Under the pieces are notes generated by a model. It ran no database searches. It was not told the DNA's origin and worked only from the letters and a program-made list of their open reading frames with translations. 64,000 bases of DNA from Vibrio ponticus. GTDB taxonomy: Bacteria > Pseudomonadota > Gammaproteobacteria > Enterobacterales > Vibrionaceae. Numbering within the stretch: position 1 is the stretch's first letter; the number at the start of each line of letters is the position of its first letter. The translations under genes were made by a program, and so were the position numbers. The stretch lies in the NCBI RefSeq assembly GCF_009938225.1, contig NZ_AP019658.1, positions 62,001 through 126,000 on the forward strand. The letters are read 5' to 3'. Shown one piece after another: positions 36,443 to 58,142 of the stretch.

Positions 36443-36462
36443 GTATCTGTTTACTGGAAAGA

Positions 36463-39404: not shown

Positions 39405-39437
39405 CTAAAGATCCTACGCAATTTAAGTAACACCAAT

Positions 39438-39458
39438 GGGGCGGTGCAACGCCGCCCC
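39438..39458 (+). terminator. GC-rich hairpin between binding-protein and ATPase genes
   Basis: GGGGCGG / CCGCCCC stem with a 7-base loop and no T run. It is probably an mRNA-stabilising or attenuating structure that raises the yield of the binding protein. Confidence 0.6.
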
Positions 39459-39477
39459 CTGACTTCTGGAAACTCAC

Positions 39478-41962: not shown

Positions 41963-42921
41963 TGGAACAAGTACTCAATAGTTTGAAATTGCCAACAGAT
42001 AAGAATATTCGTTACTTGTTAGTGATTCTCGTCGGCATTTTATTAGTGATGGGTTTTTCAAGTGGTCAGGCGTTCTTTTCCCTAGATAACTTACAGTCAA
42101 TGTCATCGCAAATGCCATTGTTAGGCTTGCTTGCACTGGCTATGGCGGTTTGTATGTTGACGGGGGGGATCAACCTTTCCATCATCGCGACGACCAATGC
42201 TTGTGGTTTAGTGATGGCAAGTATCATTACTCAAGCCCCGGATAGTTCAATGATGTTAGTGATGGCATTGGCTGGTGGCTTGGCTACAGCGGTTGTAATC
42301 GGGCTGCTTAATGGTGCGTTAATAGCGTATGTTGGGGTGTCACCTATTCTTGCTACGCTCGGGATGATGACACTGATTAATGGTCTAAATGTGCTGATTT
42401 CAGGCGGTAGCGTGATCTCTGGTTTCCCAGAGGCATTACTGATACTAGGTAATGGCGTGCTAATGGGTATCCCGATGCCGCTAATCTTATTTGTGGCGTT
42501 TGCGATTGGCTTATGGGCATTGCTTGAACACACAAGTTTGGGGCGCACCATCTATCTAATGGGCTCAAATGAGAAAGCGACACGCTTCTCAGGCATTAAT
42601 ACACAAAAAGCGACGCTGTATGTCTACATCCTATCCTCAATGTTGTGTTGGGTGGCTGCCATCGTCATGATGGCAAAATTTAACTCAGCGAAAGCAGGAT
42701 ATGGTGAATCCTACTTGCTGATTGCTATCTTGGCATCCGTACTGGGAGGCATTAACCCAGATGGTGGATTTGGACGCATTATTGGTATTGGTTTAGCACT
42801 GATTGTGCTGCAAACATTGGAAAGTGGTCTTAATTTGCTGGGAGTGAGCAGCTATCTCACTATGGCGCTGTGGGGCGGCATCTTGATCCTATTTATCTTC
42901 TTACAAAAAAATAAGGCTTAA
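41962..42921 (+). CDS. Sugar ABC transporter permease 2
   Basis: This 319-residue second permease of the same family (LsrD-like position) has MLTGGINLSIIATTNACGLVMA, VGVSPILATLGMMTLINGLNV, LGRTIYLMGSNEKATRFSGIN and LGGINPDGGFGRIIGIGLAL. Two different permeases imply a heterodimeric channel, as in Lsr-type and rhamnose transporters. Confidence 0.93.
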   Translation: MEQVLNSLKLPTDKNIRYLLVILVGILLVMGFSSGQAFFSLDNLQSMSSQMPLLGLLALAMAVCMLTGGINLSIIATTNACGLVMASIITQAPDSSMMLVMALAGGLATAVVIGLLNGALIAYVGVSPILATLGMMTLINGLNVLISGGSVISGFPEALLILGNGVLMGIPMPLILFVAFAIGLWALLEHTSLGRTIYLMGSNEKATRFSGINTQKATLYVYILSSMLCWVAAIVMMAKFNSAKAGYGESYLLIAILASVLGGINPDGGFGRIIGIGLALIVLQTLESGLNLLGVSSYLTMALWGGILILFIFLQKNKA

Positions 42922-42932
42922 CGGGGTAGTTT

Positions 42933-44567
42933 ATGAGTATTTATTTTATCGGCGTTGATGTTGGCAGTGGCAGCGCACGAGCTGGGGTCTTTGATGCTCA
43001 TGGTCGAAAAGTGGGTGAAGCTAAACGTGATACCTTGATGTTTAAACCTCAAGCTGATTTTGTTGAGCAGTCTTCTGACAATATTTGGCAAAGTGTATGT
43101 CTAGCGGTTAAAGATGCAGTGTCTCAAGCGAATATTGATCCTATTCAGGTCAAAGGTATCGGTTTTGATGCCACTTGTTCGTTGGTTGTTTTGGACAAAA
43201 ATGGTCAACCTTTAACTGTCAGCCCAACGGGGCGTAGTGAGCAGAATATCGTTATGTGGATGGATCACCGAGCGATAGCGCAAGCCGATCGTATTAACCA
43301 TACCGAACATCCGGTATTGGCGTATGTAGGTAATCGTATCTCACCAGAAATGCAAACGCCTAAGCTGTTGTGGTTAAAACAAAATATGCCGAATACCTGG
43401 TCAAAAGCTGGATACTTTTTCGATTTGCCAGACTTTCTAACCTGGAAAGCGACTTTTGATGATAGCCGTTCACTTTGTTCAACAGTATGTAAATGGACTT
43501 ACCTTGGACACGAAAGTAAATGGGATAAGAGTTTCTTTGAGCTGATTGGCTTGGAAGATCTGTTAGAGAATAATGCCAAAACCATAGGTGAACGTATTCT
43601 GCCGATGGGGCAACCTGTGGGAGATGGCTTAACGGTGCATGCTGCGGATGATCTTGGCTTAATGCCAGGTACGGCAGTAGGGACTTCAATTATTGATGCG
43701 CATGCTGGTGGTATTGGAGTGCTAGGCGCCGCAGGCATGACCGGTGAAAAAGCGGATTTCAATACCCGCTTAGCATTGATAGGAGGCACTTCTTCTTGTC
43801 ATATGGCAGCAGCAAAAACAGCTCGTTTTATCGATGGTGTTTGGGGTGCCTATTACAGTGCGATGATTCCAGGTTATTGGTTGAATGAAGGCGGGCAGTC
43901 CGCGACGGGTGCGCTTATCGATCATATTATTACTTCTCATCCTTTATACGAAAGTGCCAAAGAGCAGGCAAGTAAACTAGGGCAAACGGTCTATCAGTTA
44001 TTGAATGATCGCTTACTGGCATTAGCTGGCAGTAAGGAAGATATTGCGTTTTTGACTAAGGATATCCATGTATTGCCGTATTTTCACGGTAACCGTTCTC
44101 CTCGCGCCAATGCTCATTTGACCGGGACGATAACCGGGCTAAAAATGTCAAAAACCTTAGATGACATGGCACTGCAATACCTCGCGACCATTCAAGGAAT
44201 CGCACTTGGTACACGTCATATTATCGAAGTTATGAATGATGCTGGCTATGAGATAGACACTATCATGGCGTGCGGTGGAGGCACGAAAAATACCGTCTTT
44301 TTGCAGGAACATGCGAACGCAACTGGATGTATGATTTTGCTACCTGAAGAGAGTGAAGCGGTGCTACTTGGTTCGGCGATGCTGGGTTCTGTTGCTGCAG
44401 GTTTCTACAGTGATATTCCTGATGCGATGAATGCCATGAGCCGTATCAGCAAGAGTGTGATGCCACAAACAGAAAGAATTAAGCATTTTTACGATGCGAA
44501 ATATCAAATTTTCCACAAAATGTATCAAGATGACGCGGAATATAAAGCTTTGATGAGCGAATTCTAA
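42933..44567 (+). CDS. FGGY family carbohydrate kinase (ribulokinase-like)
   Basis: This 544-residue sugar kinase has the N-terminal phosphate loop [53 protein letters not shown] and a C-terminal ATP site with [18 protein letters not shown]. The pattern is the FGGY-pentulose kinase branch that includes D-ribulokinases. The substrate is probably a ketopentose or pentitol derivative imported by the ABC transporter encoded just upstream. No isomerase or epimerase is in the window, so the pathway is incomplete here. Its terminator is interrupted by an insertion sequence. Confidence 0.88.
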
Positions 44568-44606
44568 TTGTAGGTTGGTATTGATTAAGAGGTCTCATGA
44601 TGAGTA

Positions 44607-44638
44607 ATGCCAGTCAGTTAAGCTGACTGGCATTTTTT
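44607..44638 (+). terminator. Terminator carried in the left end of the insertion sequence
   Basis: ATGCCAGTCAG-TTAAG-CTGACTGGCAT stem with six T. It reads in the direction of the upstream kinase gene, so it replaces the terminator that was split and keeps outside transcripts out of the element. Confidence 0.82.
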
Positions 44639-45945
44639 CTATTTGTCGCATATTTCTTGGGTTTCAGTTTCACCCAACGAGGATAACTTCTATCTTCTCT
44701 TCGGGGGGGTAGGATAAACATGGATATTTGCTGTAGTAGCACTTCATAGTGTTTAGGGAGTTTCCCTGGACTCGTTAAAGGTAAAGCTGCAAAGTATTGA
44801 GTCACAGCCATGGCACTACTCGTAAAGCTTAATTGGTTCGGCCAAACGCTATCTAACTTGCTCGCCGCTTTTGTCATAACCTGCCTTATAAGGTTATAGG
44901 CTAGCAAAATCCCCCAGAGCTCCTGTCTAACCATATCTGGGCGCTTACTTCGCAATGTATACTCACTATCAAGCAAGGTTTGCTTCATTTCTCTATAGCC
45001 TAATTCGATTTCCCAACGATAGCGATAGAGCTCTACAATGTCTTCTCCGGGAAAGCGCAACCCATCACGCATTGAGGTAAGAACCTGATACTCCTTACCT
45101 TTAATGGCTTTCGATACCAACCTTGCTTCTATTATCTCAGGCAGGTCACTGAACTTCTTCCTTGCCTGAGGTGATGTTTTTATAGCAACGATAGCATCAC
45201 TCTGACTGTATTTATGGACAACTTCATACTGAAAGTCTTTTCTCACAGGGAGCATCCAATGCCTTTCTTGACCTACTTTGTTCCAGCGATTAAGCAGCCC
45301 TAAAGAGTAATATCCTTTGTCAAAAATGGTCAGTGATTGATCTGGCGTTTGTTCAATAAGCTCTTCTGCGAGCCGCATTTCGCTGGTGCGATAGTCAGAG
45401 AATGCACTATCGATTAGCTGATGACTTGTAAGCTCCATCAAGCAAACCATGCGGACCTTAGGGTAAATATTCTCAGATGATTGATTGCGCTGCGCTTTAA
45501 ACTCTTGATGATTTTCGGGTGTATCTGTCGTTCTCCAAACGACACCATCGACAGATAGAAGGTTTAGTCCACACCAAGTTTCGAAGTTAGACGACTGATA
45601 GCTATGCGCAGCCATCTTCTTAAAGACTTGCTTTACACCTTCTTCGCCTAATCTCTGTCTCGCTTGAACAACTGCACTTGGTGCAACAAAACGTTGTTTG
45701 TCTGGCAAGACAATATCGAGTTGGTTAGCAATATCCCAAACAGATTGTTGACGAAAGAGACTCATTCCAACAACGGACCAAAGTACGGCTTCTAAAGGTA
45801 ACCGTCTTCTTCTAACGGTTGCTACACCAGCTTGCTCAAAACCTTGCTGGATAAGCTCTGGACTAAGAATGTCAGAGTATTTATCAAAGTGGTGGAAGGT
45901 ATTACATGACCGAAAAGTATTGGCAAGTTGGCTTTCTAAAGACAT
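44614..45945 (-). CDS. IS4 family transposase
   Basis: This 443-residue DDE transposase starts at the ATG at 45945 ([12 protein letters not shown]). A longer frame to a TTG at 46005 would have to be read through a strong hairpin. It has an IS4 N-terminal domain, the first catalytic Asp in [18 protein letters not shown], the second in [14 protein letters not shown], and the family signature Y-2-R-3-E-6-K in [15 protein letters not shown] (about residues 325-340). No frameshift or stop, so it is probably active. Confidence 0.93.
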
Positions 45946-45982
45946 AAAAAAATCCGATATTAGTTTCCTAATATCGGATTTT
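45946..45982 (-). terminator. Hairpin terminator abutting the transposase start
   Basis: A 15-base perfect stem (AAAATCCGATATTAG and complement) with a GAAA loop and seven T ends immediately before the ATG on the minus strand. It would stop or fold back transcripts entering from outside, limiting transposase made after insertion into active genes. Confidence 0.82.
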
Positions 45983-46089
45983 GAAGCCTTTTGAGGATCG
46001 GTCAAATGATCTCACAAATTTCTTAACTGATCGGCATTACTCATGATGAGACCTCTTTTTTATTGTTCGGGTTAAATCGGACCGCGCGA

Positions 46090-48921
46090 TTATTTCTGAC
46101 GTGGCAGCAAATAGAACGTTTTCTGATTTTGGTTCATTAGCTGCTTGGCTAACTGGTTAACATTCTCGACCGTGGCGTTATTGATCATAGTGACACTGTG
46201 CGTAACCGCCTGGTAAGGCTGCGCTGAGAAGCTGTCTTGGCTGAAAGCGGCTAGCCAGTAGTCCGTGTATTCCTCTTGTTGGGCTTGGTTAACTGCCCAA
46301 GCTTTTTTCGCCTGATCTAACTCTGCCTGAGTGATGCCATTGTGTTGAATATCCTCAACGACACGGCTGGCAAGTTTTGCTAGTTCATGGGCTCGGTTAG
46401 GAGCTGTGGTAAAGTTGAGGCGTGCCAGATAGTACGGGGCTGGGTCACGGGCAAGCATTTGTGACATGTTAATCACGTACACACCGGACGCTTTGACTCG
46501 CACCGTTTCACGCAGGCGGTTATTGGTGATTTGCTCGAGTAGTTGCAACTGCATTTGCTGCTGTAAAGACCACGGATGATCCGCGCTGTATTGGATCTGT
46601 ACCATGGCTTTATTACTGCTACCAATCGCGTAGGTGTACTCTTCGGTGACAGATTTTGGCTCGATGCCTCGATCAATTGGCTTGAGCTCTGGCTGCGGAT
46701 TCGCTGCTAGAGATGCCAACCAACGTTTGATACTTGGCTCAATCGCTTCTGGCTTTGCATTGGTGACGATGGTGGTGATCATCTGTGCTGGGTCGCCATA
46801 CAGTTTTTCACGCCATTGCGTCAGTTCCTGGGCAGTAAACTGATGCCAATCACCGTCCACGGTTGCCACTAAACGCTGACCATTATCGAACGCTTGTAGG
46901 CTGATTTGATCCATAAAAATACGTTCGGCAGGCACTTTTGATAGGTTTTGCAGCGTCGATTGTTTCATGTCGGCGAGTTTATCCTCACAGCTATTGGCTT
47001 GAGTCAGTTTCAAGTGAAGCAACGCCAGTGCATCATCCAATTGCTCGGTTTCACTAGAAACGCTGAAACCATGGAATAGCAACTCGCTGTAAGGTGCCAC
47101 GCTTACTTGATGTTGCTTACTCCATTGAGTCAGTTGGTGAGGCGTATAGTCACCGTAACCGCATTGCTCTGCGAGTTTCCCTGCCCAGTCAACGATGCCC
47201 AGTTGATTGGCTGCCTCAAGTGAGCGACCTCCTGGAATGCGCAGATTGATTTGCGTGCCACCTTTAAGATCGGACTTACTTACTACCACTACTTTCATAC
47301 CATTGCTTAGTTGGTACTCATAAACTGGTGTTTCACCAAAGTTGACCTGTGAGTTTTTAGCCACAATGTCACCTGCTGCTTGCGGTGTCACCTTCAAGTC
47401 GATTTCCGGTTTGGTCAGATTAAACGGCTCAGGTTGGCTTGCACGAATGGTTTGCCACTGCTGTGGTAATTGACGGATATCGACTTTGGCTTGGTCACTA
47501 TCAGGACCGATTAGCGCCAGTTTTGGTGAGGTGTTGTTTAATACCTTCGCCACATGTTGCTGAATGTCGTGCGCAGTCAAAGAGTCCAAAAAGGCTTCTG
47601 TTAACTGTAATTGCTGCTCTTTATCCATCATTGGCAATTGATAGCTATCGGCTTGCACCAATTGGTCGGCGAGGTATTGGTTGGAGTAACCAGCACGATG
47701 TTTCGCTTGTTGCGCGACTTTATTTAGCATTTGCTGTTTCGCAAACGCCAGTTCAGTCTCACTGACAGGTTGGCTCGCGAGGCGTTGCAACTCAGTAGTA
47801 AGCTGTTGGAAAGCGTTGTCATAACCGTGTTTAAATGGGTGAGCGATGACCAAATACTGAACTCGTTCAGTACTGAGTAGATGGCTCTGCGGCGCGACCA
47901 TTGCGGCTTTTAACTTGCCATTGGCAACCAAAATAGCCAGTCGCTGATTAAGAATGGCAAGCCACAACGAATCGAGCGTCTCCTGCCATTGACCTTCGAC
48001 CGTGTTCAGCGGCGTATCGATATCATTTTGCAATAACAACTGCATAAAACGGCGGCTGTTTTCTGGGTCAAATACTGTGGCGACTTGCAGCTCAGGTTGC
48101 GATTCAAATTGTTGCCATGCGATAGGGTCGCTTGGCGTGCTGCCTTTTTCTTTGCTGGCAAATAAGGCTTCGATTTGGCTTCTTACCGCCGCATTATCAA
48201 AGGAGCCACTGATAACCAGCGTCATACGCTGTGGTTGATACCACTTTTGGTAATACGCAATGGCTTCTTCGACAGGCGCAGTGCGGATCACGTCGATAGT
48301 ACCAATCGCGTTACGCTCGGCAAGGCGGCTACCTTCGTAGCGTAGCGCCTCAAGTTGGTCATTAATGCGAGAGCCGACACCTTGGCGCAGACGCCATTCT
48401 TCGACAATAACTTCACGTTCGCGATCGAAAGCTTGTGGGTCAAAACTGATTTCACTAGCCCAATCTGAGAGGATGCGTAACCCTAAATCAGTCGTCTGGC
48501 GAGCCGAGTTTGGTAGCGATAGTTTATAGATAGTGCTGTTGTAACTGGTGACGGCATTTACGTGTGAGCCAAGGTTGATGCCTTGGGCTTCAAGAGCTTT
48601 AAAGCTTTGACTATCAGGGAAATTGGTTGTGCCTTTAAATGCCATATGCTCGACAAAGTGTGCCAAGCCGCGCTGTTGCTCTTCCTCCTGCAATGAGCCT
48701 GAATGAACCGCAAGACGCATTTCTACGCCTGGTGTTTTCCTCGGTTGTAGGATCACTTGCATATCGTTATCGAGCCAATACTGGAAGATATCTTCGCGTA
48801 CCGGCAGCGGCTGATATTGTTCGCTCTGTGCGAGATTAGGTGGGTTGATAGTCGTGGTTTGGCAGCCTGTTAAACCAAGAGCCACTGCAAGGGCGAGTGA
48901 AATTAAGGTCGGTTTAATCAT
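46090..48921 (-). CDS. M16 family zinc protease lipoprotein (PqqL/FusC-like)
   Basis: This 943-residue protein has a lipoprotein signal (lipobox LTGC, Cys20, followed by Gln, which favours outer-membrane sorting). It contains two M16 half-barrels. The first holds the inverted zinc motif HFVEH at residues 88-92 with the distal Glu in REVIVEEW near 174; the second (from about 530) lacks it, as is usual. Large two-domain M16 proteases act as clamshells on short proteins or peptides. It is third in an operon with a YddB-like receptor and a YddA-like ABC protein. This is the gene set known in E. coli (yddA-yddB-pqqL) and in the Fus ferredoxin-uptake system, where the protease cleaves imported iron-protein. 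The substrate here is unknown. Confidence 0.88.
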   Translation of the reverse strand: MIKPTLISLALAVALGLTGCQTTTINPPNLAQSEQYQPLPVREDIFQYWLDNDMQVILQPRKTPGVEMRLAVHSGSLQEEEQQRGLAHFVEHMAFKGTTNFPDSQSFKALEAQGINLGSHVNAVTSYNSTIYKLSLPNSARQTTDLGLRILSDWASEISFDPQAFDREREVIVEEWRLRQGVGSRINDQLEALRYEGSRLAERNAIGTIDVIRTAPVEEAIAYYQKWYQPQRMTLVISGSFDNAAVRSQIEALFASKEKGSTPSDPIAWQQFESQPELQVATVFDPENSRRFMQLLLQNDIDTPLNTVEGQWQETLDSLWLAILNQRLAILVANGKLKAAMVAPQSHLLSTERVQYLVIAHPFKHGYDNAFQQLTTELQRLASQPVSETELAFAKQQMLNKVAQQAKHRAGYSNQYLADQLVQADSYQLPMMDKEQQLQLTEAFLDSLTAHDIQQHVAKVLNNTSPKLALIGPDSDQAKVDIRQLPQQWQTIRASQPEPFNLTKPEIDLKVTPQAAGDIVAKNSQVNFGETPVYEYQLSNGMKVVVVSKSDLKGGTQINLRIPGGRSLEAANQLGIVDWAGKLAEQCGYGDYTPHQLTQWSKQHQVSVAPYSELLFHGFSVSSETEQLDDALALLHLKLTQANSCEDKLADMKQSTLQNLSKVPAERIFMDQISLQAFDNGQRLVATVDGDWHQFTAQELTQWREKLYGDPAQMITTIVTNAKPEAIEPSIKRWLASLAANPQPELKPIDRGIEPKSVTEEYTYAIGSSNKAMVQIQYSADHPWSLQQQMQLQLLEQITNNRLRETVRVKASGVYVINMSQMLARDPAPYYLARLNFTTAPNRAHELAKLASRVVEDIQHNGITQAELDQAKKAWAVNQAQQEEYTDYWLAAFSQDSFSAQPYQAVTHSVTMINNATVENVNQLAKQLMNQNQKTFYLLPRQK

Positions 48922-48925
48922 AGTG

Positions 48926-50608
48926 TTATGCTCCTAGTGCAACAGGTTGAGAGTTATCTAAATCAATTAAGGAATCCGCCATACTCCATAGCTCTGGCTG
49001 GTGGGTAACCATCAGAATGGCGCTGTTGGGTAAGGCTTGTTTTAAGGTGGTAATCATTTGTTTAGCCGCATGCTGATCGAGAGATGAGGTAGTCTCATCA
49101 AGCATGATCAGTTGTGGTTTATTCATAAGTAGACGAGCAAACATTAGGCGTTGCTGTTCACCTCCCGACAATTGATTAGCCCAAGGGGCTACTTCGTCTA
49201 GCGAGCTGCTCAGCGAGCCTAACCCAACTTGATTAAGGGCTTGGGTACAGATGTTGTCATCAAACAGCGTCTGCTCTTGTGGGTAACACAACAGGGCTTT
49301 GAGGCTGGTAGTTGAGAGGTAGATCTTTTGCGGAATCCAAATCGATTCGTCACGTTGATATTCACCGATATAGTTGGTCCAAAAACCACTTAATGTTCGC
49401 AGCAGACTGGATTTACCTAACCCAGATCGACCTTTTAGCATCACAAGTTGACCTTGCTTAACGATGAGGTTGTTCACTGTTAGCAGTGAGTGGTCGCGAT
49501 CAATTTGTACGCGTAACGTCGCACTGAGCGAATTGGGCGCAATCGGCTTTCTTGCTTGTTGTGGCAGGGTGACGTCGTTCAGTTTTTGCTGAAATACGGT
49601 TAAACGCTCTACCGTGGCACTTAGTTTGGCTAAGTCACGATATGAGTAGATAAACCAACTCAATGAGCCAGAAACTTGCATAAACGCCATTTTAATTTGC
49701 ATCAGTCCACCTAGCTGAATGGCACCGGAGAGGAATTGCGGAAGGGCAAAAAAGATAGGTGCGAGGCTAGATACTTGCGCGTAACCCACGGTAAAAAAGC
49801 CCAAGTTGCGCTCTTTTATCATTAACTTGTACCAATTTTGCGCGACAAAGGTGAATGTATTCCCGAGTGTTTGGCGTTCGATTGCTTCGCCATTTTGTGC
49901 GCCGATCATTTCACTGTTCTCACGACGCTCGATCAGTGCTGCACGAAAATCCGCTTCGCGTTTTTGTTGATTGAAGTTCAGTCTTTGTAGTGGCTTGCCA
50001 ATCCAATGCGTAATAGCGGTTCCCACTAGGGTATAAGCGATACACATCCACACCATGTAGCCTGGGATATGCCACTCTTGTCCTGCCAAGTTAAAACTCA
50101 TCTCACCGGATAGATTCCACAAGATGGTGATAAATGAGCCGAGTGTGAGCACCGAACGTAAGAATGACAGCAGTAGATCGAGCGACAGATCGATCAGTAG
50201 ATAGATATCTTCAGCAATACGTTGATCCGGGTTGTCCGGCTCCGTTTGTGCCAACTTGATGTGGTAATGATGATGTTGATCGGATAACCACTGCTCAGTC
50301 AGTTGCTTGGTCATCCAAGTGCGCCAGTCAATAAGCAGTTTTTTCTGCAAATAGCTGCTGTAAACCTGCACTAAAATCAGTGAACTAATAAGCAGAGCGA
50401 ACTGACCAAGTAAGCGATAGATGCTTGAACCATCAAGCTGTTGTAATGCGTTGTAGAAATCGCCATTCCATTGGTTAAATTGGACGCTAAGCCACACGGA
50501 ACCAAAGGTCATGCTAATGATGACTAACAGTAAGCCTAGCGACGGTAAACGCTCTTTGGAGAGCCAAAATGGTTTTACTAGCTGCCAGTAATGAGAGAGA
50601 AAATTCAT
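48926..50608 (-). CDS. SbmA/BacA-type ABC transporter, fused permease-ATPase (YddA/FusD-like)
   Basis: This 560-residue inner-membrane protein has an N-terminal SbmA/BacA-like membrane domain with about six helices (FNQWNGDFYNALQQLD, IDWRTWMTKQLTEQWLSDQHHHYHI, NPDQRIAEDI). It is followed by an ATPase with Walker A GRSGLGKSSL, signature LSGGEQQRL, and Walker B LIMLDETTSSLD. I start at 50608 (MNFLSHYWQLVKPF); the 16 extra upstream residues look unlike the family. It is 4 bases from the M16 gene. In the Fus model this protein handles the peptide products or completes uptake; its exact role is not settled. Confidence 0.88.
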   Translation of the reverse strand: MNFLSHYWQLVKPFWLSKERLPSLGLLLVIISMTFGSVWLSVQFNQWNGDFYNALQQLDGSSIYRLLGQFALLISSLILVQVYSSYLQKKLLIDWRTWMTKQLTEQWLSDQHHHYHIKLAQTEPDNPDQRIAEDIYLLIDLSLDLLLSFLRSVLTLGSFITILWNLSGEMSFNLAGQEWHIPGYMVWMCIAYTLVGTAITHWIGKPLQRLNFNQQKREADFRAALIERRENSEMIGAQNGEAIERQTLGNTFTFVAQNWYKLMIKERNLGFFTVGYAQVSSLAPIFFALPQFLSGAIQLGGLMQIKMAFMQVSGSLSWFIYSYRDLAKLSATVERLTVFQQKLNDVTLPQQARKPIAPNSLSATLRVQIDRDHSLLTVNNLIVKQGQLVMLKGRSGLGKSSLLRTLSGFWTNYIGEYQRDESIWIPQKIYLSTTSLKALLCYPQEQTLFDDNICTQALNQVGLGSLSSSLDEVAPWANQLSGGEQQRLMFARLLMNKPQLIMLDETTSSLDQHAAKQMITTLKQALPNSAILMVTHQPELWSMADSLIDLDNSQPVALGA

Positions 50609-50671
50609 GATTATTATTGCTTTACGATCAAAGGGCAGACGAGGTGGTCTGCCCAAGTCAAAGAAAAAAGA

Positions 50672-53146
50672 TTAGTAGTCGTAACTTGCTTGTAGCCAGA
50701 ATTGACGACCTGCTTCGTAAACGCGGTAGACTTCGCCTTGATGGACGAATGAATCAGTGGCGTTTTCGTTGTTTAGCAAGTTGGTGATTTCAGCTGAGAT
50801 AGCTGCGCCATAAGCAAAACTTGGTTTCCATTCGGCTTTGACGTCCCAGCGGAAAGTGTCTTCAAAATCGACACGTTGATACTTAAGAACTTGTTTACCT
50901 GTCGACGGATCGACGGCGTAGTCGTTCTCGTGGCGTGTTGCTTGCGCGCGACCTTGTTGCCATTGCCACAAGTTGTAGATGGTGGTGCCGTACTGAGGCA
51001 GTTCTGCAATCCACTCAACATTGGCGCGAAGCGGCGAGTTAAAGTCAGTACTTGGCAGGTCAGCCGCATTAATGATTTTTCCGTCGTACCACACTTTGTC
51101 GTAATCAAGGTTGGTATTTGGATCGAAGAATGCGTAACCCATATCGCTAGGAGTGTTGCTTTGGGTTTGTTGCCACACAAGTGATGCACTCAGTTGGTTA
51201 CGAACACTTTCAATCACAACCGGAAGACGGTTACGTACGGTTAGAGAAACCGAGTCATGCGTTGTTTCACCGCCGTTATCGAAGGTGCGAATGCGTGCTT
51301 CATTTGGATCATTGGTACCTGGGTATTTCGGTCGGCTGCGAACTTCATCTTTCCCTAAGCGGTGTACGTAATTTAGGGCCCAAATGCTGTTGCGCCACAT
51401 TTGTTGCACGCCAAGAGAGAGCTCGTCGTTGTACGGCGTTTTCAGATCAGACATACCTTCATAGTCTGACGTGGTGGTCCAGCTATCTTGATGCTCACTA
51501 TTTGGGTTACACATCATGTAACAGTGCTTAAGCCCTGCGTTTTGACCTTCATAAAGCGCGTAGGTCAACATTGAACGACCGTAGTAACGGTTAGCACCGG
51601 CAGTGAATACTGTGTCACCATCACCTAACACATCCCAACTGGCAGTAACACGTGGTGCCAGGTTGTTGTTTTTTACAAAGTCATCGCGTTCAAAACGTAA
51701 ACCTGTACGCAGGGTAAAGTTGTGAATTTCGATAGTATCTTCGGCGAAAATGGCGCTATTAGTGTAATTGGTGGTGTAGGTGCCAGCGAAGAAGGCATCG
51801 ACTTGATCGGAATAGTTGAGCCATTCCATTGTATCCCAAGTGCCACGGTAACCATTTCTAAAGTAGGTCTCATCACGGATGTATTTCGCCGTAGTACGGG
51901 TCGTTTCACCACCTACCACAAATTGATGTGTAGTATCACCGAGACGTTTAGGGTTAAAGGTCATTTTGCCTTTAAGGCTGGTATTGTTTTGTTCTGTGCG
52001 CAGATCGCCCGGTCCGCCAGAGGCGTAAGTTACGGGGTTTTGCCAATCTGAGAAGTCCTCTAATTGCACAAAGTAGTCTTGTTCGCTATCGCGAACATCT
52101 TCCATGGCTTGATAACCAAGGGATACGTCCAGTACACCGGCATCTAACATGTGTTCGACTTGCAGTGTGGTAGCAAGACCATTGTGCTCTTCGGTGTAGT
52201 CTGAGTTAGCGACACCATTCATAAAGAGTTCAGACTCGTACTGAGAAAGTGCGACACTAAGGTTTGCTGTGGTTCGAGGCGTTGCGTACCAAGTAAATTT
52301 AGTGAAAATGTTGTCCGAAACGCGGGTCTGATCTTTGATGCTGTCTTGGTATTCGAAGCCGCTGAGTTTATTGTTTTCGAGTACCACGCTACGACCGCCG
52401 GCATTTGCCATCGGAATTGAGGATTCTCGACGAGAGACAGAAGCGACAAAGCCGAGATCATCGGTGATCCCGGTTTCTACAGAAACACCGTAGCTGCGTT
52501 TTTTGTAGTCCGGCTGGAAACGCGCAGGGTTGCTAATATCGTTGCCACTAGAGTCAAAGTTCAGTTTGTCATCGACGATAGTTTTGTTCCAAGAAGAGTC
52601 GGTTTGTCGATAATAAACATTGGCTGAGCTCTCACCTTGCCAACTGCGGCTTTTGGTTTCAACCACACCACCAGTAAAGCCACCAAACTCAACCGGCACG
52701 TTGGCATCATAAACCGTCACGCTCTCAATTAAGCGGCTATCAAGATAAAAGCCTTGTTCGTCAGAGGAGAGGTTTGAGTTAGTGACACCTAAACCATTGT
52801 CAGCAGGATCGATATCATTATTGATGCTCATCCCATCTAATGTGAATGAGTTTTGATAAGCGGTAGAGCCGTGAATCGAAATATCAGATGGCTTAATTTC
52901 ACCTTGATTCAGACTATTATTCCCACTATTTGAGAATTGAACCGCTGGATTTGTTTTCAATAAGTCGGTGATATTTCCATCGCCAGTCGGTCTCTTATTA
53001 ATATCTTCAGCATTAAGAGTTTGTTTACTGGTTAATGGTGCCTCAACTTTATCTTTGACGATAATTTCTTGCTGAGGAATGTCGTCATTAGCAAAGACGC
53101 TAGACGCGGAAAATAGCCCAAATAAGAGAGCGGCTGCGGGTTTCAT
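50672..53146 (-). CDS. TonB-dependent outer-membrane receptor (YddB/FusA-like)
   Basis: This 824-residue receptor has a signal peptide to about residue 19 and a TonB-box-like QEIIVKDK directly after. A plug follows (RPTGDGNITDLLKTNPAVQF, SLNQGEIKPSDISIHGSTAYQNSFTLDG, VPVEFGGFTGGVVETK), then a 22-strand barrel ending FWLQASYDY. Plug and barrel stretches, including DLKTPYNDELSLGVQQ, match the E. coli YddB pattern. A cysteine pair in HCYMMCNP lies in a predicted external loop. First gene of the receptor-ABC-protease operon, transcribed divergently from a TonB operon, with a Fur-like box between. An iron-bearing protein or peptide is the likely ligand type by analogy; unproven. Confidence 0.92.
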   Translation of the reverse strand: MKPAAALLFGLFSASSVFANDDIPQQEIIVKDKVEAPLTSKQTLNAEDINKRPTGDGNITDLLKTNPAVQFSNSGNNSLNQGEIKPSDISIHGSTAYQNSFTLDGMSINNDIDPADNGLGVTNSNLSSDEQGFYLDSRLIESVTVYDANVPVEFGGFTGGVVETKSRSWQGESSANVYYRQTDSSWNKTIVDDKLNFDSSGNDISNPARFQPDYKKRSYGVSVETGITDDLGFVASVSRRESSIPMANAGGRSVVLENNKLSGFEYQDSIKDQTRVSDNIFTKFTWYATPRTTANLSVALSQYESELFMNGVANSDYTEEHNGLATTLQVEHMLDAGVLDVSLGYQAMEDVRDSEQDYFVQLEDFSDWQNPVTYASGGPGDLRTEQNNTSLKGKMTFNPKRLGDTTHQFVVGGETTRTTAKYIRDETYFRNGYRGTWDTMEWLNYSDQVDAFFAGTYTTNYTNSAIFAEDTIEIHNFTLRTGLRFERDDFVKNNNLAPRVTASWDVLGDGDTVFTAGANRYYGRSMLTYALYEGQNAGLKHCYMMCNPNSEHQDSWTTTSDYEGMSDLKTPYNDELSLGVQQMWRNSIWALNYVHRLGKDEVRSRPKYPGTNDPNEARIRTFDNGGETTHDSVSLTVRNRLPVVIESVRNQLSASLVWQQTQSNTPSDMGYAFFDPNTNLDYDKVWYDGKIINAADLPSTDFNSPLRANVEWIAELPQYGTTIYNLWQWQQGRAQATRHENDYAVDPSTGKQVLKYQRVDFEDTFRWDVKAEWKPSFAYGAAISAEITNLLNNENATDSFVHQGEVYRVYEAGRQFWLQASYDY

Positions 53147-53247
53147 TCATTCTGTCCGTATTGTTAAATTGTTTTTAAAATTCTGTATTTGTTATGATAA
53201 ATAGGCTGATGTCCTATTCGGCGGCACAATATCATAATGCAAATCTA

Positions 53248-53266
53248 AATAGCAATTGTTATCATT
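53248..53266. promoter_or_regulatory. Fur-like box in the receptor/TonB divergent region
   Basis: AATAGCAATTGTTATCATT agrees with the Vibrio Fur pattern AATGANAATNATTNTCATT at 13 of 16 defined positions. A partial second site (AGTGATAATC) follows at about 53274. It is placed to control both divergent operons by iron. Confidence 0.65.
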
Positions 53267-53361
53267 AATATTTAGTGATAATCTTCACATCAATTTTTTA
53301 GGGCGGATTCAGCTCTCGTATCGATAGTTCTGTTTGTTTTTTAAGCAGGGTATGGTCGCGA

Positions 53362-54156
53362 GTGAATAGCGCGATGTCGGAGAAAGTTAGGTTGTTTTCT
53401 ATCAGTCAAAAGCAAACTTGGAATAGCGTTCTGCTAGGTTTTGCTGCGAGTTTTTTATTTATTTCGGCGAGTTCTAAAGCGGAAAAAATAGATGAAGTGT
53501 TTCATCAAGATCGAGTGGGTTTAAAAGCGAGCCAGCAAGCACAAAAAAAAGTAGAAGCGCTTGATGATCAAACGTTAGCTATCGTAGAGCAGTATCGACA
53601 AGTGCTCAGAGAACAGCAGTTAGCCGATAAGTACAACCAATTGCTAAATAAACAAATAGACCAACTTGAAGCTGCGCTCGCTGAAATTGAAGCGAAACAA
53701 ACCCAATTAAGAGCGACGCGAATGATGCTAGGACCCCTGTTGGAGGAAATGGTTGAGTCATTAGCGCTGTTAGTACAAGCCGATGCACCGTTTTTATTAC
53801 CAGAGCGACAAGCGAGAGTAGCGAATTTGAAGCGCTTGTTAGTTGATGCCAGTTTGAGTGAGGGAGAGAAAGTTCTTTCCGTACTGGATGCTTACCAAGT
53901 TGAACTGAGTTACGGCTATACCACGGAAAGTTGGCAGGGAAGAGTGGATGGTGCATTGGTTAACTTTGTACGCGTTGGTCGCTTGGGGTTCTACTACTTT
54001 ACTCCTGATGAAAAGCAAGCCGCAGTGTGGCAGCAAGGTTGGCAACCTCTTTCTGTAGATTGGATTGAAGCGTTAAAACAAGCGGCAGAGGTGGCTAGCG
54101 GACAGCAATTACCTTCACTTCTTACTCTCCCAGCTATCAATATCGAGAACAAGTAA
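53362..54156 (+). CDS. DUF3450 periplasmic coiled-coil protein
   Basis: This 264-residue protein has a signal-like hydrophobic segment (about residues 21-40, ending SSKAE), a long coiled coil (about 45-120) and a small C-terminal domain with LSYGYTTESWQG, ALVNFVRVGRLGFYYFTPD. This is the DUF3450 pattern, found as the first gene of TonB2-type operons in marine bacteria. The start is GTG at 53362 or ATG at 53374; neither has a strong ribosome site. It overlaps the next gene's ATG by one base. It probably helps the MotA/TolQ-type partner span the periplasm. Confidence 0.82.
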   Translation: MNSAMSEKVRLFSISQKQTWNSVLLGFAASFLFISASSKAEKIDEVFHQDRVGLKASQQAQKKVEALDDQTLAIVEQYRQVLREQQLADKYNQLLNKQIDQLEAALAEIEAKQTQLRATRMMLGPLLEEMVESLALLVQADAPFLLPERQARVANLKRLLVDASLSEGEKVLSVLDAYQVELSYGYTTESWQGRVDGALVNFVRVGRLGFYYFTPDEKQAAVWQQGWQPLSVDWIEALKQAAEVASGQQLPSLLTLPAINIENK

Positions 54157-55445
54157 TGAAATCAGTATGGCTAATGTTAGCGCTAGCACTGAGCTGGCAA
54201 ACTAGTGTCTCGGCATCAGAGTTGGACAAGGTATTACAACAAGTAAAACAAGGCTCATTGGTGGAAAAACGCCAAGCAGAGCAGAGAGTGAATCAAGTTG
54301 TTGGTGAATTTAACCAAGCAAAAGCCGCGCTCACTGCCGCGCGAAAAAATCTGGCTGAGAGCAATGCGGTTAACATCGAATTAGAAGATCGCATTTTGCA
54401 GCTGCAAGCGAGCTTGAAGCAGAGAAGAGAGCAATATCAAGCGCAACGTGAGTCAATGAACAGCGTGTTTACTCATGTGGTCGAGCATGGCGATATGATG
54501 TTGCAGCGAGTGACGCCGCATGGTCTTTGGCAGTTTGATCAGTCTGACTTCGTCTCTGCGGATGAAGACGCGGTCGATATTGCCCAGATCAAACGTCTTT
54601 GGATGGCACTGCTAGAACAGACGATTCTTTCCGGTAAAGCGATCAGCAGTGAGCAGTCTATTGTGTTAGCCAACGGTAAGCCTCGCGATGCAAAGGTGAC
54701 TCAATTTGGTCCTTTCAATGCTTATGCCGAGCTAGAACAGCCATTGTGGTTGCATTATTTGCCAGGTGAACAAGCGTGGATGGTGATGGACCCGCAACCT
54801 TCGATTTTAGTCACTGAGCAGCAGGCAACGATTGACCCTAGCTTTGGTGCACTACTTGATAAACAAGCCCATGCCCCGAGTTGGTTAGAGCGCATGGCAC
54901 CGGCTGGTGTGGTGGGTGTGCTGATCGTGCTGATTGGTGTGTTAGGTGCAGGTATTGCGTTGGTGCGTAGCCTCGCTTTGCGCAAAGCCAAACGTCAGAT
55001 GTATGTACAGATGAGTGCTGAGAAGGTCAGTGATGACAATGCCCTCGGACGGGTGATGTTAGCCAGTGAAAAATGCCAAAACGCACAGCTTGAAGCGGTG
55101 ATCGACGAAGCGGTATTGAAAGAAGTACCAAGCTTTAAGACAGGTGTCGGTAGTTTGGCTGTATTTGCAAGTATTCCTCCACTTTTAGGTCTTCTTGGTA
55201 CAGTTGGCGGCATGATCGAGACATTTCGGATTATTACTGAGCATGGCAGTGCGGACAGTCAGCTGTTATCAGGCGGTATCTCTCAAGCATTGCTAACCAC
55301 TGAAATGGGCTTGATTGTCGCAGTACCGTTGTTGTTGTTGCATTGCGGACTAAAGGCACAAAGCACTCAATTAATCGAGTTACTGGAGCAACAGAGTGTT
55401 GGCTTGGTTGTGTTACGCCAGCAGGCGAATGCCAAGAGGTCTTAA
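54156..55445 (+). CDS. Large ExbB-family proton-channel protein (TtpC-like)
   Basis: This 429-residue protein has a signal peptide (to about residue 21), a periplasmic coiled coil (about 25-110), a linker domain, and then three C-terminal helices of the MotA/TolQ/ExbB fold. The channel region includes FASIPPLLGLLGTVGGMIETFRIITEHG and ISQALLTTEMGLIVAVPLLLLHC. In Vibrio TonB2 systems such an extended ExbB-like protein (TtpC) is needed in addition to the short ExbB, and is thought to couple to the partner across the periplasm. It is followed directly by exbB. Confidence 0.88.
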   Translation: MKSVWLMLALALSWQTSVSASELDKVLQQVKQGSLVEKRQAEQRVNQVVGEFNQAKAALTAARKNLAESNAVNIELEDRILQLQASLKQRREQYQAQRESMNSVFTHVVEHGDMMLQRVTPHGLWQFDQSDFVSADEDAVDIAQIKRLWMALLEQTILSGKAISSEQSIVLANGKPRDAKVTQFGPFNAYAELEQPLWLHYLPGEQAWMVMDPQPSILVTEQQATIDPSFGALLDKQAHAPSWLERMAPAGVVGVLIVLIGVLGAGIALVRSLALRKAKRQMYVQMSAEKVSDDNALGRVMLASEKCQNAQLEAVIDEAVLKEVPSFKTGVGSLAVFASIPPLLGLLGTVGGMIETFRIITEHGSADSQLLSGGISQALLTTEMGLIVAVPLLLLHCGLKAQSTQLIELLEQQSVGLVVLRQQANAKRS

Positions 55446-55964
55446 ATGCTCAATTTTATTCAGACAGCGGGCCCTTTAGTTTGGGGGATCATCGCGCTTT
55501 CCACCTTGATGTGGTGGTTGATTGCTCGCGCCTACCACAATCAATCGCGCTGCCGAATGAGCTTTGAATCTTCTTTAGTTATGCAGCGAGAAATACAAAG
55601 TGAACTGGCTACTAATGACTATCAGCATGTGTGCCGTACTTGGTTAAGCCAAGCGGAACAGCAGCTTAATCAAGGTCTGGCTTGGGTATCGGTTTTGGTG
55701 AAAGTACTTCCGCTATTGGGGTTGCTAGGGACGGTCGACGGTATGATCGATAGCTTCCAGCAGCTTGATCAACTGGATATTCAACGCCAACTTTCTGGTG
55801 GGATTTCCCAAGCTTTATTAACCACATTATCGGGCTTAGTGACATCACTGTCGGGCTTGTATTTTGTGCATAACCTTAATCAGCGTAAGCGCCGTTACTT
55901 AGCCGAGTTTCGCAGTCAACTTGAGGTTAAACATCTAGAGGTCACACATGCGTTTCCGTCATAG
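55446..55964 (+). CDS. exbB: ExbB proton-channel subunit
   Basis: This 172-residue inner-membrane protein is a short ExbB with three helices: GPLVWGIIALSTLMWWLIAR, LVKVLPLLGLLGTVDGMIDSFQQL and SQALLTTLSGLVTSLSGLYFVHNL. It forms the pentamer that uses the proton gradient to drive TonB. It overlaps exbD by 17 bases. Confidence 0.92.
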   Translation: MLNFIQTAGPLVWGIIALSTLMWWLIARAYHNQSRCRMSFESSLVMQREIQSELATNDYQHVCRTWLSQAEQQLNQGLAWVSVLVKVLPLLGLLGTVDGMIDSFQQLDQLDIQRQLSGGISQALLTTLSGLVTSLSGLYFVHNLNQRKRRYLAEFRSQLEVKHLEVTHAFPS

Positions 55965-56349
55965 TGAAGATTCTGCCGAGCAGGCAAATGTGGATATGAC
56001 GCCATTGATTGATGTGGTGTTTATCTTGCTGATTTTCTTTATTTTATCTGCCTCATTTCAGCAGCAGAATCAAATTCGAGTCGAGCGTCCCAATAGCCAA
56101 GTCACCGATTCTATCTCCAGTGTGTCGTTGACTGTCGCTGTCGACGAACAAGGACAAATTTGGCTTGATAATCAAGCGGTGGAAGTGGCAATGCTCACCA
56201 GTCGAGTGCAGCAGAAAGCTGCCCAAGCGAGCAATGTCTCGGTTGTAATTGACGTTGATAAATCGGTCGATAGTGGGCGCTTAATTCAAGTGATTGATAA
56301 GGTACGTATTGCAGGGGTAAATAATGTTGCTGTTGCTACAGAGTCCTAG
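55948..56349 (+). CDS. exbD: ExbD proton-channel subunit
   Basis: This 133-residue protein has a single helix with the essential membrane aspartate in VDMTPLIDVVFILLIFFIL (about residues 13-31) and a periplasmic ExbD/TolR domain ending GVNNVAVATE. It sits inside the ExbB pore. It overlaps tonB by 26 bases. Confidence 0.93.
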   Translation: MRFRHSEDSAEQANVDMTPLIDVVFILLIFFILSASFQQQNQIRVERPNSQVTDSISSVSLTVAVDEQGQIWLDNQAVEVAMLTSRVQQKAAQASNVSVVIDVDKSVDSGRLIQVIDKVRIAGVNNVAVATES

Positions 56350-56992
56350 TCTAAAGCGCTGTTGGTACCATCAACCACTGCTATTTGCACTATTGATTAA
56401 TATCGCGCTGGTCGGGTTGATGTATTGGCTGACGATGGGGAATCAAAATATGAGTCGCACTAAGTCGGTGAGTTTGTCTACCGTGTTTCAAGCGCGTCAG
56501 ACCGAGAGCGTTGAGCCGGAGCTGGAACCGTTATTTGAGGTTAGCCAAGCCCCACAAAGCGCTTCGATGCCACCGCCACCAATGGCATTGAATGTCACCA
56601 GTTTGGAGTTTGATTCATCGGTAACGATTCCCAACATTAAGGTGCCACTTGAAACCAGTAAGCCCAATTTACAAATGGTGAGCTTGACGTTTAGTCCGCA
56701 AGGCAATGGGCTCGGTAGCGTGATGACGAGTGCGATGGCACAGGCAAAGCCAGTCTTTCAAATTCCACCACAGTATCCGGCGAAAGCGAAACAAAATGGC
56801 ATTGAAGGGTATGTCACCCTCGACTTACTGGTTGATGTAAGTGGTCGAGCACAAGAGATTAAAGTGGTTGAAGAAACTCCAGCAGGCGTGTTTGCCCGCT
56901 CAGCGAAACGTGCGGTCATTCGTTGGCGTTTTGCCGCTCCCGAAGAAAGCCAATGGCAAAGGATCACTATCCGCTATGAATTGGAAAAATAG
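56324..56992 (+). CDS. tonB: TonB energy-transducing protein (TonB2 type)
   Basis: This 222-residue protein has an N-terminal membrane anchor (about 17-38), a short periplasmic spacer with MPPPPMAL in place of a long proline rod, and the C-terminal TonB fold with PPQYPAKAKQNGIEGYVTLDLLVDVSGRA and ARSAKRAVIRWRF. It transmits energy to outer-membrane receptors. The short spacer is typical of TonB2 proteins, which rely on partner proteins such as the extended ExbB relative. The likely client is the divergent YddB-like receptor. Confidence 0.93.
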   Translation: MLLLLQSPSLKRCWYHQPLLFALLINIALVGLMYWLTMGNQNMSRTKSVSLSTVFQARQTESVEPELEPLFEVSQAPQSASMPPPPMALNVTSLEFDSSVTIPNIKVPLETSKPNLQMVSLTFSPQGNGLGSVMTSAMAQAKPVFQIPPQYPAKAKQNGIEGYVTLDLLVDVSGRAQEIKVVEETPAGVFARSAKRAVIRWRFAAPEESQWQRITIRYELEK

Positions 56993-58142
56993 TTTCATCC
57001 TATTGTGCCTGTTCTCGTCTCTTTCATGGGCAAGTGGCGAGGCAAGACACTATCAAACCTATCAACGTTTACAGATGCAGCTACAAAAAGATCCGGTTGC
57101 AACCCTTGCGGCGATTGAGTTGTTTACTAAGCAAGTTGCCTCAGCAGACGATCAGTCGAAGCAGATGGCAGCTTATTTGCATTTGCAAGCGTGTATTGCG
57201 CTGAATCGTTATAGTTGCGCGGCAAACGCCGTAGAGATTTTGCTGGCGTTAAATCAAGATGAAGCGCGTAAACCTGAGTTACTCAAGTTATCTGCTCAGC
57301 TGCATTATCAAACACAGAGCTACAACACGGTAATCAACCATGTGCAACAGTGGTTGAACTTAAGTCAGTCGCAGCAAGTCTCGCCATCGGCAAAAGATTG
57401 GGCGGAAATGTACTCTTTGCAGGCTTATGGGCAGTTTTATTTGCAAGCTTATCAACCTGCTATTGTTGCGATAGAGCGTGCGATTAAGTATCAAAAAACA
57501 GAACAAAGAGAGCTGTTCGCTTTGGGTTTATATCAGCAGCAAAAAGATTGGCGCAATGTGAATCGCGTATTGAAGTCCCTAGTTTCTGCACACGCCCATA
57601 AACCAGAATATTGGGAAAAATACGCTTACTCATTTCTTAAGCTTGATCAGCAAAAGCAAGCGCTGCACACATTAGGCAGTGCTTACAAAGCGGGTAACTT
57701 ACCGCAGCGTAGCATTATTTTATATGCACAAATGTTGTTGCGTTTTAATGCTCCTGATCGAGCGGCAAATGTGTTGGAAGCACATCCTAATCTAGCGAGC
57801 CATGCTATCTATAATTCGTTACTGACGCAAAGCTATCTACTGGCGCGGGATAAAGATAACGCGGCGAAATGGTTGGCGAAATCGACACACAAAGATGCCG
57901 ACATTACCCGTGGTTTGCTCGCCTACCAACAGGGGCAGTGGCAGCAGGTTGTGACGTTATTCTCTTCGCTTGATGTGGCTAAAAAGCGTAATCACTATTG
58001 GTTATTGTTAGCGGCGATTAGTGAGTTCGAATTGCAACGCTGGCAACAAGCTCGAGTCGCGTTTGAACGCTTGGCAGGCACGCACTATGCTGAGCTGGCG
58101 ACTCAGTGGTTGAGTCAGATTGATTATCTAACCAGTGAATAA
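56976..58142 (+). CDS. TPR-repeat periplasmic protein of the TonB operon
   Basis: This 388-residue protein has a signal peptide (MNWKNSFILLCLFSSLSWA). I start at 56976, inside tonB, where AAAGGAT lies upstream; the longer frame is an artefact of overlap. The mature part is helical with repeated tetratricopeptide-like pairs (about residues 40-380), for example KPEYWEKYAYSFLKLDQQKQAL and WLLLAAISEFELQRWQQARVAFERL. TPR proteins close several TonB2 operons. A scaffold for the TonB complex or for the client pathway is likely. Confidence 0.84.
   Translation: MNWKNSFILLCLFSSLSWASGEARHYQTYQRLQMQLQKDPVATLAAIELFTKQVASADDQSKQMAAYLHLQACIALNRYSCAANAVEILLALNQDEARKPELLKLSAQLHYQTQSYNTVINHVQQWLNLSQSQQVSPSAKDWAEMYSLQAYGQFYLQAYQPAIVAIERAIKYQKTEQRELFALGLYQQQKDWRNVNRVLKSLVSAHAHKPEYWEKYAYSFLKLDQQKQALHTLGSAYKAGNLPQRSIILYAQMLLRFNAPDRAANVLEAHPNLASHAIYNSLLTQSYLLARDKDNAAKWLAKSTHKDADITRGLLAYQQGQWQQVVTLFSSLDVAKKRNHYWLLLAAISEFELQRWQQARVAFERLAGTHYAELATQWLSQIDYLTSE

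Follow-up and report, generated by a model that had tools for sequence, protein, structure and literature searches.

In this work, we analysed a stretch of 64,000 nucleotides of Vibrio ponticus (hereafter, the window) on contig 2 of a genome of 4,796,932 bases in 3 contigs (G000). We focus on nine genes in two divergent operons, one encoding an outer-membrane receptor, an ATP-binding cassette (ABC) protein and an M16 protease, and the other a set of TonB motor proteins. These genes probably constitute an import unit that is Fur-controlled and protease-associated, belongs to the Fus / YddA-YddB-PqqL class and has its own six-protein TtpC-type TonB motor. The genes for import and digestion are of a known kind; what is new is that they come with a complete motor, and the two tend to be inherited together as a block. 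We observed the parts and their class, the recurrence of the block, the separate lineage of the motor, and the parallel divergence of motor and receptor. That the unit has its own motor is well supported.

As a self-contained set of parts in non-model marine bacteria, the unit allows one to ask why a dedicated energiser is needed for protein import, what the roles of TtpB and TtpD are, and whether each TonB protein is matched to a particular receptor box. Importers of this class vary in the energiser found beside them: some have no adjacent one, and others a FusB-like TonB, ExbB-ExbD or the six-gene motor described here.

Organization of the locus

A check of the open reading frames (ORFs) and a domain search confirmed all nine ORFs with their domains. 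The import operon (46090-53146, minus strand) is divergent from the six-gene motor operon (53362-58142, plus strand). Going away from the gap between them, the minus-strand order is receptor, ABC protein and M16 protease, and the plus-strand order is DUF3450, TtpC-like, ExbB, ExbD, TonB and TPR, with genes that overlap or abut. The domains found are M16 (PF00675/PF05193), ABC_membrane_2 / SbmA_BacA with ABC_tran, and the TonB plug in the import operon, and DUF3450, two MotA_ExbB, ExbD, TonB_C and TPR-like domains in the motor operon. An earlier sequence-only reading of this DNA had proposed a receptor-SbmA/BacA-M16 operon and, 215 base pairs (bp) away, a complete divergent DUF3450-TtpC-ExbB-ExbD-TonB-TPR operon; both were confirmed as placed, the 215 bp separating the receptor start (53146) from the listed DUF3450 start (53362). 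For two genes a later start is likelier: the ABC ORF as listed opens with TTG at 50656 and has an in-frame ATG at 50608, and the TPR ORF as listed opens at 56841, inside tonB, and has an ATG at 56976. The features are as follows.

46090-48921, minus: M16 zinc metalloprotease, predicted lipoprotein, FusC/PqqL class, 943 amino acids (domains, structure matches)
48646-48660, minus: HxxEH zinc motif HFVEH, protease residues 88-92 (motif)
48862-48873, minus: lipobox LTGC of the protease, residues 17-20, Gln after Cys (sequence motif)
48926-50608, minus: SbmA/BacA-type ABC protein, YddA-like, membrane and ATPase domains (domains, structure matches)
50672-53146, minus: TonB-dependent outer-membrane receptor, FusA/YddB family, 824 amino acids (domains, structure matches, model)
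53048-53068, minus: TonB-box-like strand EIIVKDK, receptor residues 27-33 (motif)
53147-53361, no strand: divergent promoter region between both operons (sequence, alignment)
53248-53266, plus: Fur-box-like site AATAGCAATTGTTATCATT, 13 of the 16 specified bases of the Vibrio consensus used (consensus scoring)
53362-54156, plus: DUF3450 protein, TtpB-like (ORF, domain)
54156-55445, plus: TtpC-like MotA/TolQ/ExbB-family protein (ORF, domain, tree)
55446-55964, plus: ExbB-like proton channel subunit (ORF, domain)
55948-56349, plus: ExbD (ORF, domain)
56324-56992, plus: TonB (ORF, domain)
56744-56779, plus: lineage motif AKPVFQIPPQYP in the TonB C-terminal domain, residues 141-152 (alignment)
56976-58142, plus: TPR protein, TtpD-like (ORF, domain)

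Class of the import core

By sequence, the solved structures matching the receptor are YddB (6ofr, 299 bits) and FusA (4zgv, 249 bits), and the third match listed has an E value of 0.41. A model calculated from 47 sequences (predicted local distance difference test, pLDDT, 87; predicted template modelling score, pTM, 0.85) gave YddB (E 5.6e-77; template modelling score, TM, 0.88 by target) and FusA (1.0e-70) as fold matches, followed by a siderophore receptor at 1.7e-34. The predicted fold thus places the receptor in the FusA/YddB class, with a far better match to YddB and FusA than to other solved structures. The protease matches PqqL (6ofs, 217 bits) and FusC (6b03, 170 bits) over nearly its full length, its top match being 9ldy, which is labelled only as an M16 peptidase. 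These matches and its motif identify it as a FusC/PqqL-kind M16 protease that is genetically linked to the receptor and has an intact zinc motif; Glu168 lies 76 residues past the last His of HFVEH. Both class assignments of the sequence-only reading, YddB/FusA-like for the receptor and PqqL/FusC for the protease, are therefore borne out.

The best solved match of the ABC protein is 6tqe, which we take to be the BacA-type protein Rv1819c; SbmA is weaker and further down. Identities between the window core and E. coli yddA-yddB-pqqL are 38, 28 and 24%, respectively. Because the receptor, M16 and ABC proteins belong to these classes and yddA-yddB-pqqL lie side by side in E. coli, the three-gene operon corresponds to the known protease-associated import core (PMC6793856). 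It had also been stated that Fus and YddB-PqqL systems import an iron protein. This has been demonstrated for Fus, but the substrate of YddB/PqqL is given as unknown in PMC6793856.

Some database receptors at about 46-54% identity (P0017, P0036 and others, from Yersinia, Providencia and Pseudomonas) have an extra STN domain (PF07660), which points to surface-signalling control of those receptors. Near the FusA-like receptors of G644, G726 and G583 (L136, L137 and L138) are lipoprotein genes with Gly/Ser-rich starts, which suggest surface partner proteins.

Distribution of the nine-gene block

The first scan covered 148 Vibrio genomes with cut-offs of E 1e-50 for the receptor and 200 bits for TtpC. 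The receptor was found at six places in five genomes, with M16 matches close to all six, and TtpC exceeded 200 bits in exactly the same five genomes, the next best score being 178 bits. We saw the divergent nine-gene block in G119, G114, G003, G074 and LaRot3, and a core with no motor beside it (motorless core) at a second G114 locus and in G128 and G066.

In a scan of the order, 23 of 295 genomes contained the receptor. It was adjoined by the six-gene motor in five of them (G000, G119, G578, G624, G547), by a FusB-like TonB in two (G632, G698) and by ExbB-ExbD in one (G644); in 14 no motor was detected in the stretch examined, some of these stretches, such as those of G701 and G065, stopping at a contig end, and for one (G733) the sequence was not retrieved. 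A scan of the class found the receptor in 4 of 369 genomes, the three besides G000 having no other unit gene detected nearby. Finally, an all-Vibrio scan found it in 27 of 227 genomes at 30 loci, of which 10 have the six-gene motor, 11 no adjacent motor and nine a different ExbB-ExbD motor. In these last nine (L219-L227), the receptor lies opposite M16-(ABC)-ExbB-ExbD, and a TonB-like ORF of about 275 amino acids was seen in two of them; this arrangement ties a protease-linked receptor to a second kind of motor. Motor and core thus need not be neighbours in Vibrio: the block is present at 10 of the 30 loci, but 11 have no adjacent motor, and G809 has a motor without a receptor alongside.

In total, the block occurs at 13 receptor loci, 10 in Vibrio (G000; G808, V. 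fluminensis; G119; G114, V. intestinalis; G851, which is LaRot3; G003; G812; G074; G810; G825) and three in two other families (G578, G624, G547). The receptor of G851 is split into two ORFs, and G547 has an additional gene between the protease and the ABC protein. The genes flanking the block differ from group to group. Such a block is more than a chance arrangement, since the divergent organisation is found 13 times, with receptors whose identity to that of the window falls as low as about 31%. Carriage of the unit on plasmids is unsupported: eight records of a plasmid collection had a receptor match at E 1e-40, all below 60% identity, and several of these records are of chromosome size.

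Lineage of the motor

In the TtpC tree, a branch with full support separates the nine unit rows from the TonB2-like and TonB3-like ones. A concatenated six-gene tree also places the nine rows in one clade (100/100), and an enlarged six-gene tree gives a 13-row clade of 12 unit motors and the lone G809 motor (100/100); G808 is outside the rows of the motor tree and of the promoter test below. The identification of the motor as a TonB2 operon, made in the sequence-only reading, is accordingly rejected, the two being separate lineages with 100/100 support. A TonB3-like identity is rejected as well, since the TonB3-like rows, which were assigned by gene arrangement and not against the V. vulnificus sequence, form a separate clade. 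The sister of the unit-motor clade consists of operons from two other families with no FusA-like receptor in the stretch (G688, G559, G660, G636 and a second copy in G578).

G000 has its own TonB2-like operon (L095), whose TtpC is 33% identical to that of the unit. A search of this genome gave just two TonB_C proteins and three ExbD/TolR-family genes, so no TonB1 system was detected there; according to PMC6957404, every member of the Vibrionaceae has one.

All nine unit TonBs contain AKPx(F/Y)Q-x-PP-x-YP ahead of the YP motif, as do the units new in the all-Vibrio scan. The pattern is exact in 14 of 21 database homologues, and the other seven differ by one or two letters. The unit TonB reads PPQYP, PPRYP or PPKYP where the FusB-like proteins of G632 and G698 read RRVNYP. 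For the DUF3450 protein, no solved relative was found at E 0.1. TonB3-like operons with their own receptor (L091, L092, L093, L096, L171) adjoin divergent genes that, as judged by eye, resemble those for a peptide-type ABC permease and a binding protein.

Parallel divergence of motor and receptor

For these comparisons, G624, which is near-identical to G578, was excluded, and the split M16 of G003 was excluded from the M16 matrix. The identity matrices of receptor, ABC protein, M16 protease and motor vary together (Pearson 0.92-0.99, 6 rows). Between motor and receptor, r is 0.918 (7 rows), a value reached by 4 of 5040 permutations. The receptors of the other families (G547, G578) are 64-65% identical to that of the window, whereas those of Vibrio G003 and G074 are only 31-32% identical. 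Motor identities rank in the same order, with G547 and G578 nearer to the window than G003 and G074, against taxonomy. Such tracking against taxonomy is expected under joint transfer, although it may also have come from old paralogues that were inherited and in part lost.

The receptor tree was calculated with the split receptors of LaRot3 and G716 excluded, and the clade of loci new in the all-Vibrio scan was set by best match rather than by tree. In the receptor clade of the window, the motor is adjacent at 5 of 5 Vibrio loci and 3 of 3 loci in two other families, so that the rarity as neighbours that would have spoken against a dedicated unit is not seen there. In the second clade, the motor is adjacent at five of eight loci, and the nearest relatives of this clade, in a further family (G776, G701, G609), have no adjacent motor.

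Three genomes (G114, G851, G809) have a motorless core and a unit-type motor elsewhere. In G114 and G851, the motorless core is a second one, of the other receptor clade, and a complete unit is located elsewhere; in G809, there are two motorless cores away from the motor, one of the second clade by best match. Every genome in which a unit-type motor was found also had a receptor of clade A or B, as the receptor clades were labelled. TtpC was sought in the 148 Vibrio genomes, in 10 new receptor-bearing ones and in the genomes drawn in one further scan; since the sets outside the 148 were limited, receptorless motors could have been missed.

TonB box of the receptor

Unit receptors have V-x-V-(K/R/T)-D-(K/T/R), or a form with Ile, near the mature N-terminus. 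In the first set, where the pattern was noticed post hoc, it is present in 9 of 9 receptors from motor-bearing genomes and in 0 of 19 others, among them that of E. coli K-12, which was not searched for the motor. The expression was fixed before the wider Vibrio scan and then applied to the loci new in that scan: it matches five of seven clade A or B receptors in motor-bearing genomes (the misses being G825 and G809 C1) and none of the 14 others, which include one receptor (G809 C2) that also comes from a motor-bearing genome. Note that, of the five new hits, G808 is a near-twin of the window and G851 C2 is the N-terminal piece of a split gene. Among 120 listed database receptors, 22 have the pattern, ten of them at 39-44% identity and of unknown motor status. 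On the tree, there are two independent contrasts, both in the same direction (sign test, p 0.5). A match between receptor box and motor is suggestive only.

Lipobox of the protease

The protease lipobox noted earlier (LTGC) is present and is kept in the M16 protein of all 13 nine-gene units (that of G547 was read by eye). It is also present in the protease of 10 of 10 motorless Vibrio cores with a visible start, the G065 protease being cut off by a contig end. By the same pattern, it is absent from E. coli PqqL and from eight of nine ExbB-ExbD-type M16 proteases, and it is variable in motorless cores outside Vibrio, being present in some and absent in others. In E. coli, the residue after the lipobox Cys informs the membrane destination through the Lol system. 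In the eight unit proteases with a visible start this residue is Gln or Gly, never Asp, and the outer membrane is therefore favoured as the location of the unit protease. In G003 (L084), the unit protease reads as two ORFs, and an extra M16 gene lies at the opposite end of the unit, past the TPR gene.

Promoter region and candidate iron control

We scored sites against a Vibrio form of the Fur consensus with 16 specified bases; a close form is given in PMC4324432. The site AATAGCAATTGTTATCATT at 53248 is the sole one of the 64-kb window with a score above 12. When the promoters of six units are aligned, the Fur-like stretch is the main conserved block. Each of the 12 unit promoters tested (the window, G119, G114, LaRot3, G003, G074, G578, G624, G547, G812, G810 and G825) has a best Fur-like score of 13-15 of 16, although in G074 the best-scoring site differs from the aligned one. 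In a control covering the first six of these, the numbers of Markov shuffles reaching the score, of 300, were 6 for the window, 1 for G119, 0 for G114, 1 for LaRot3, 0 for G003 and 0 for G074. A scan of the gap found no terminator.

Proposed mechanism and alternatives

We propose that iron scarcity releases Fur from the shared promoter, so that both operons are expressed, as the recurring site suggests. The receptor would then bind a surface substrate, which from its FusA/YddB fold and class is most likely a small iron-containing protein. The unit TonB, driven by TtpC-ExbB-ExbD with TtpB (DUF3450) and TtpD (TPR), would grip the V-x-V-K-D-K strand of the receptor and pull the plug, and possibly the substrate too. 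The M16 lipoprotein would cut the substrate from its presumed position on the periplasmic side of a membrane, probably the outer membrane, and the ABC protein, by analogy with FusD, would pass the product into the cytoplasm. More tentatively, and with slightly less than even confidence, the nine genes may be a mobile cassette with a private TtpC-type motor, a fourth Vibrio TonB-type lineage that reads its own V-x-V-K-D-K box, passed between families as a block, whose extra subunits pull a folded protein to an outer-membrane-tethered protease.

Several results weigh against a dedicated, Fur-controlled unit. Since 11 of the 30 Vibrio receptor loci have no adjacent motor and nine have the ExbB-ExbD motor, the core is usable with other energisers. 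In the receptor tree, the unit receptors form two clades separated by motorless rows, so the link between motor and receptor was gained or lost on at least two occasions. The unit-type motor of G809 (TtpC 74% identical) is intact but has no receptor alongside, and in two other families near kin of the unit motor occur on their own. Because only one other TonB was detected in G000, the motor might serve other receptors. The tree programs issued warnings about long between-group branches and about uneven amino-acid composition. A grip by an arginine pair, as in FusB, was rejected because the pair is absent from the unit TonB in the alignment. As for regulation, a scan found no sigma-70-like promoter in the gap, and the Fur-like site of the window is the joint weakest of the 12, with six shuffles reaching it. 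Fur-like sites of equal score also occur upstream of motorless cores and of the genome's own TonB2 operon, and the site would therefore mark iron control, not the pairing.

These results bear on three other explanations. The motor may be a general-purpose TonB system that powers several receptors, its neighbourhood being the convenience of one Fur promoter, which we consider possible but rather doubtful. It would fit the few TonB_C and ExbD/TolR-family genes of G000 with no TonB1 detected, the G809 motor, and the related motors alone in other families. The N-terminal region of Pectobacterium FusA also binds the general TonB in vitro (PMC7593965). Nevertheless, among the 148 Vibrio genomes this motor was found in only five, all with the receptor, and G809 too has a second-clade receptor; moreover, motor and receptor diverge in parallel against taxonomy, and the unit receptors mostly share a distinctive box. 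That box could itself be a clade character without functional meaning, a view we find plausible though somewhat short of an even case: the expression was fixed only after the pattern had been noticed, only two contrasts are available, two of the seven new receptors miss the pattern, it occurs in the ten database receptors at 39-44% identity, and its strict form is lacking in P0012 and P0013 (56-58%), receptors of Shewanella and Endozoicomonas. Yet both contrasts point in the same direction, and none of the 14 other new receptors has the pattern. We think it rather unlikely that the substrate is a peptide, a haem-like cofactor or another large ligand and that the unit serves peptide or cofactor nutrition. 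BacA/SbmA-type proteins do carry peptides and other hydrophilic molecules, and the ABC protein has the presumed Rv1819c structure as its best solved match. The unspecified YddB/PqqL substrate (PMC6793856) also leaves room for such a ligand, but the Fur-like site in every unit promoter tested and the FusA class of the receptor, in which the one established substrate is ferredoxin, argue for iron.

Comparison with known systems

E. coli YddA-YddB-PqqL likewise combines an ABC protein, a FusA-class receptor and an M16 protease, and YddB is the best solved fold. However, in E. coli K-12, yddA-yddB-pqqL has no TonB motor genes alongside, PqqL has no lipobox and the gene order is different. The Pectobacterium FusA-FusB-FusC-FusD system shares with the window a receptor, an M16 protease, an ABC protein and a system-specific TonB (PMC7593965). 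Unlike the window, where the motor is a complete six-gene TtpC-type one and the M16 protein is a predicted lipoprotein, Fus has a single TonB, FusB. The arginine pair of FusB (RRVNYP in G632 and G698), which is tied to ferredoxin binding (PMC7593965), is replaced by PPQYP in the TonB of the window. The ABC protein was compared with the FusD class through YddA/SbmA and not with FusD itself, and a linked ABC protein is not universal in the class. The suggestion that the 12-kb unit is an undescribed variant thus stands for the complete motor beside the core, but not for the idea of a dedicated TonB, which is already known in the class from FusB (PMC7593965).

Vibrio TonB2 (TtpB2-TtpC2-ExbB2-ExbD2-TonB2-TtpD2) consists of six genes of the kinds seen in the unit, arranged alike (PMC6957404), but falls in a separate clade with full support and is not orthologous to the unit motor. 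V. vulnificus TonB3 has six genes and a receptor gene at the operon start (PMC6957404); in TonB3-like operons, the receptor is codirectional and matches no unit gene, and no M16 gene was seen alongside. In V. parahaemolyticus, peuA-tonB2 resembles the unit in joining a receptor to a TonB-type motor, but there the receptor, for ferric enterobactin, is iron-regulated and its gene is cotranscribed with the TonB2 genes, and the accessible part of the report mentions no protease (PMC4141801). We did not find the combination of receptor, M16 protease and TtpC-type motor described in the titles and abstracts listed from the open-licence literature. The main text of PMC6793856 has no mention of Vibrio, ExbB or an ABC transporter, but its Figure 2 and S1 Table may include such clusters.

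Neighbourhood of the unit

A V. fluminensis contig is 97.5% identical to the unit in DNA sequence. About 9.6 kb next to the unit (window 36445-46101) has no counterpart at the corresponding position of the V. fluminensis A621 contig (L072). An IS4-family transposase gene at 44614-46005, with flanking inverted repeats that match at 15 of 16 bases in the stretches compared, separates an FGGY-type kinase gene from the protease. In the relative G119 (L081), the FGGY-type kinase gene directly adjoins the protease.

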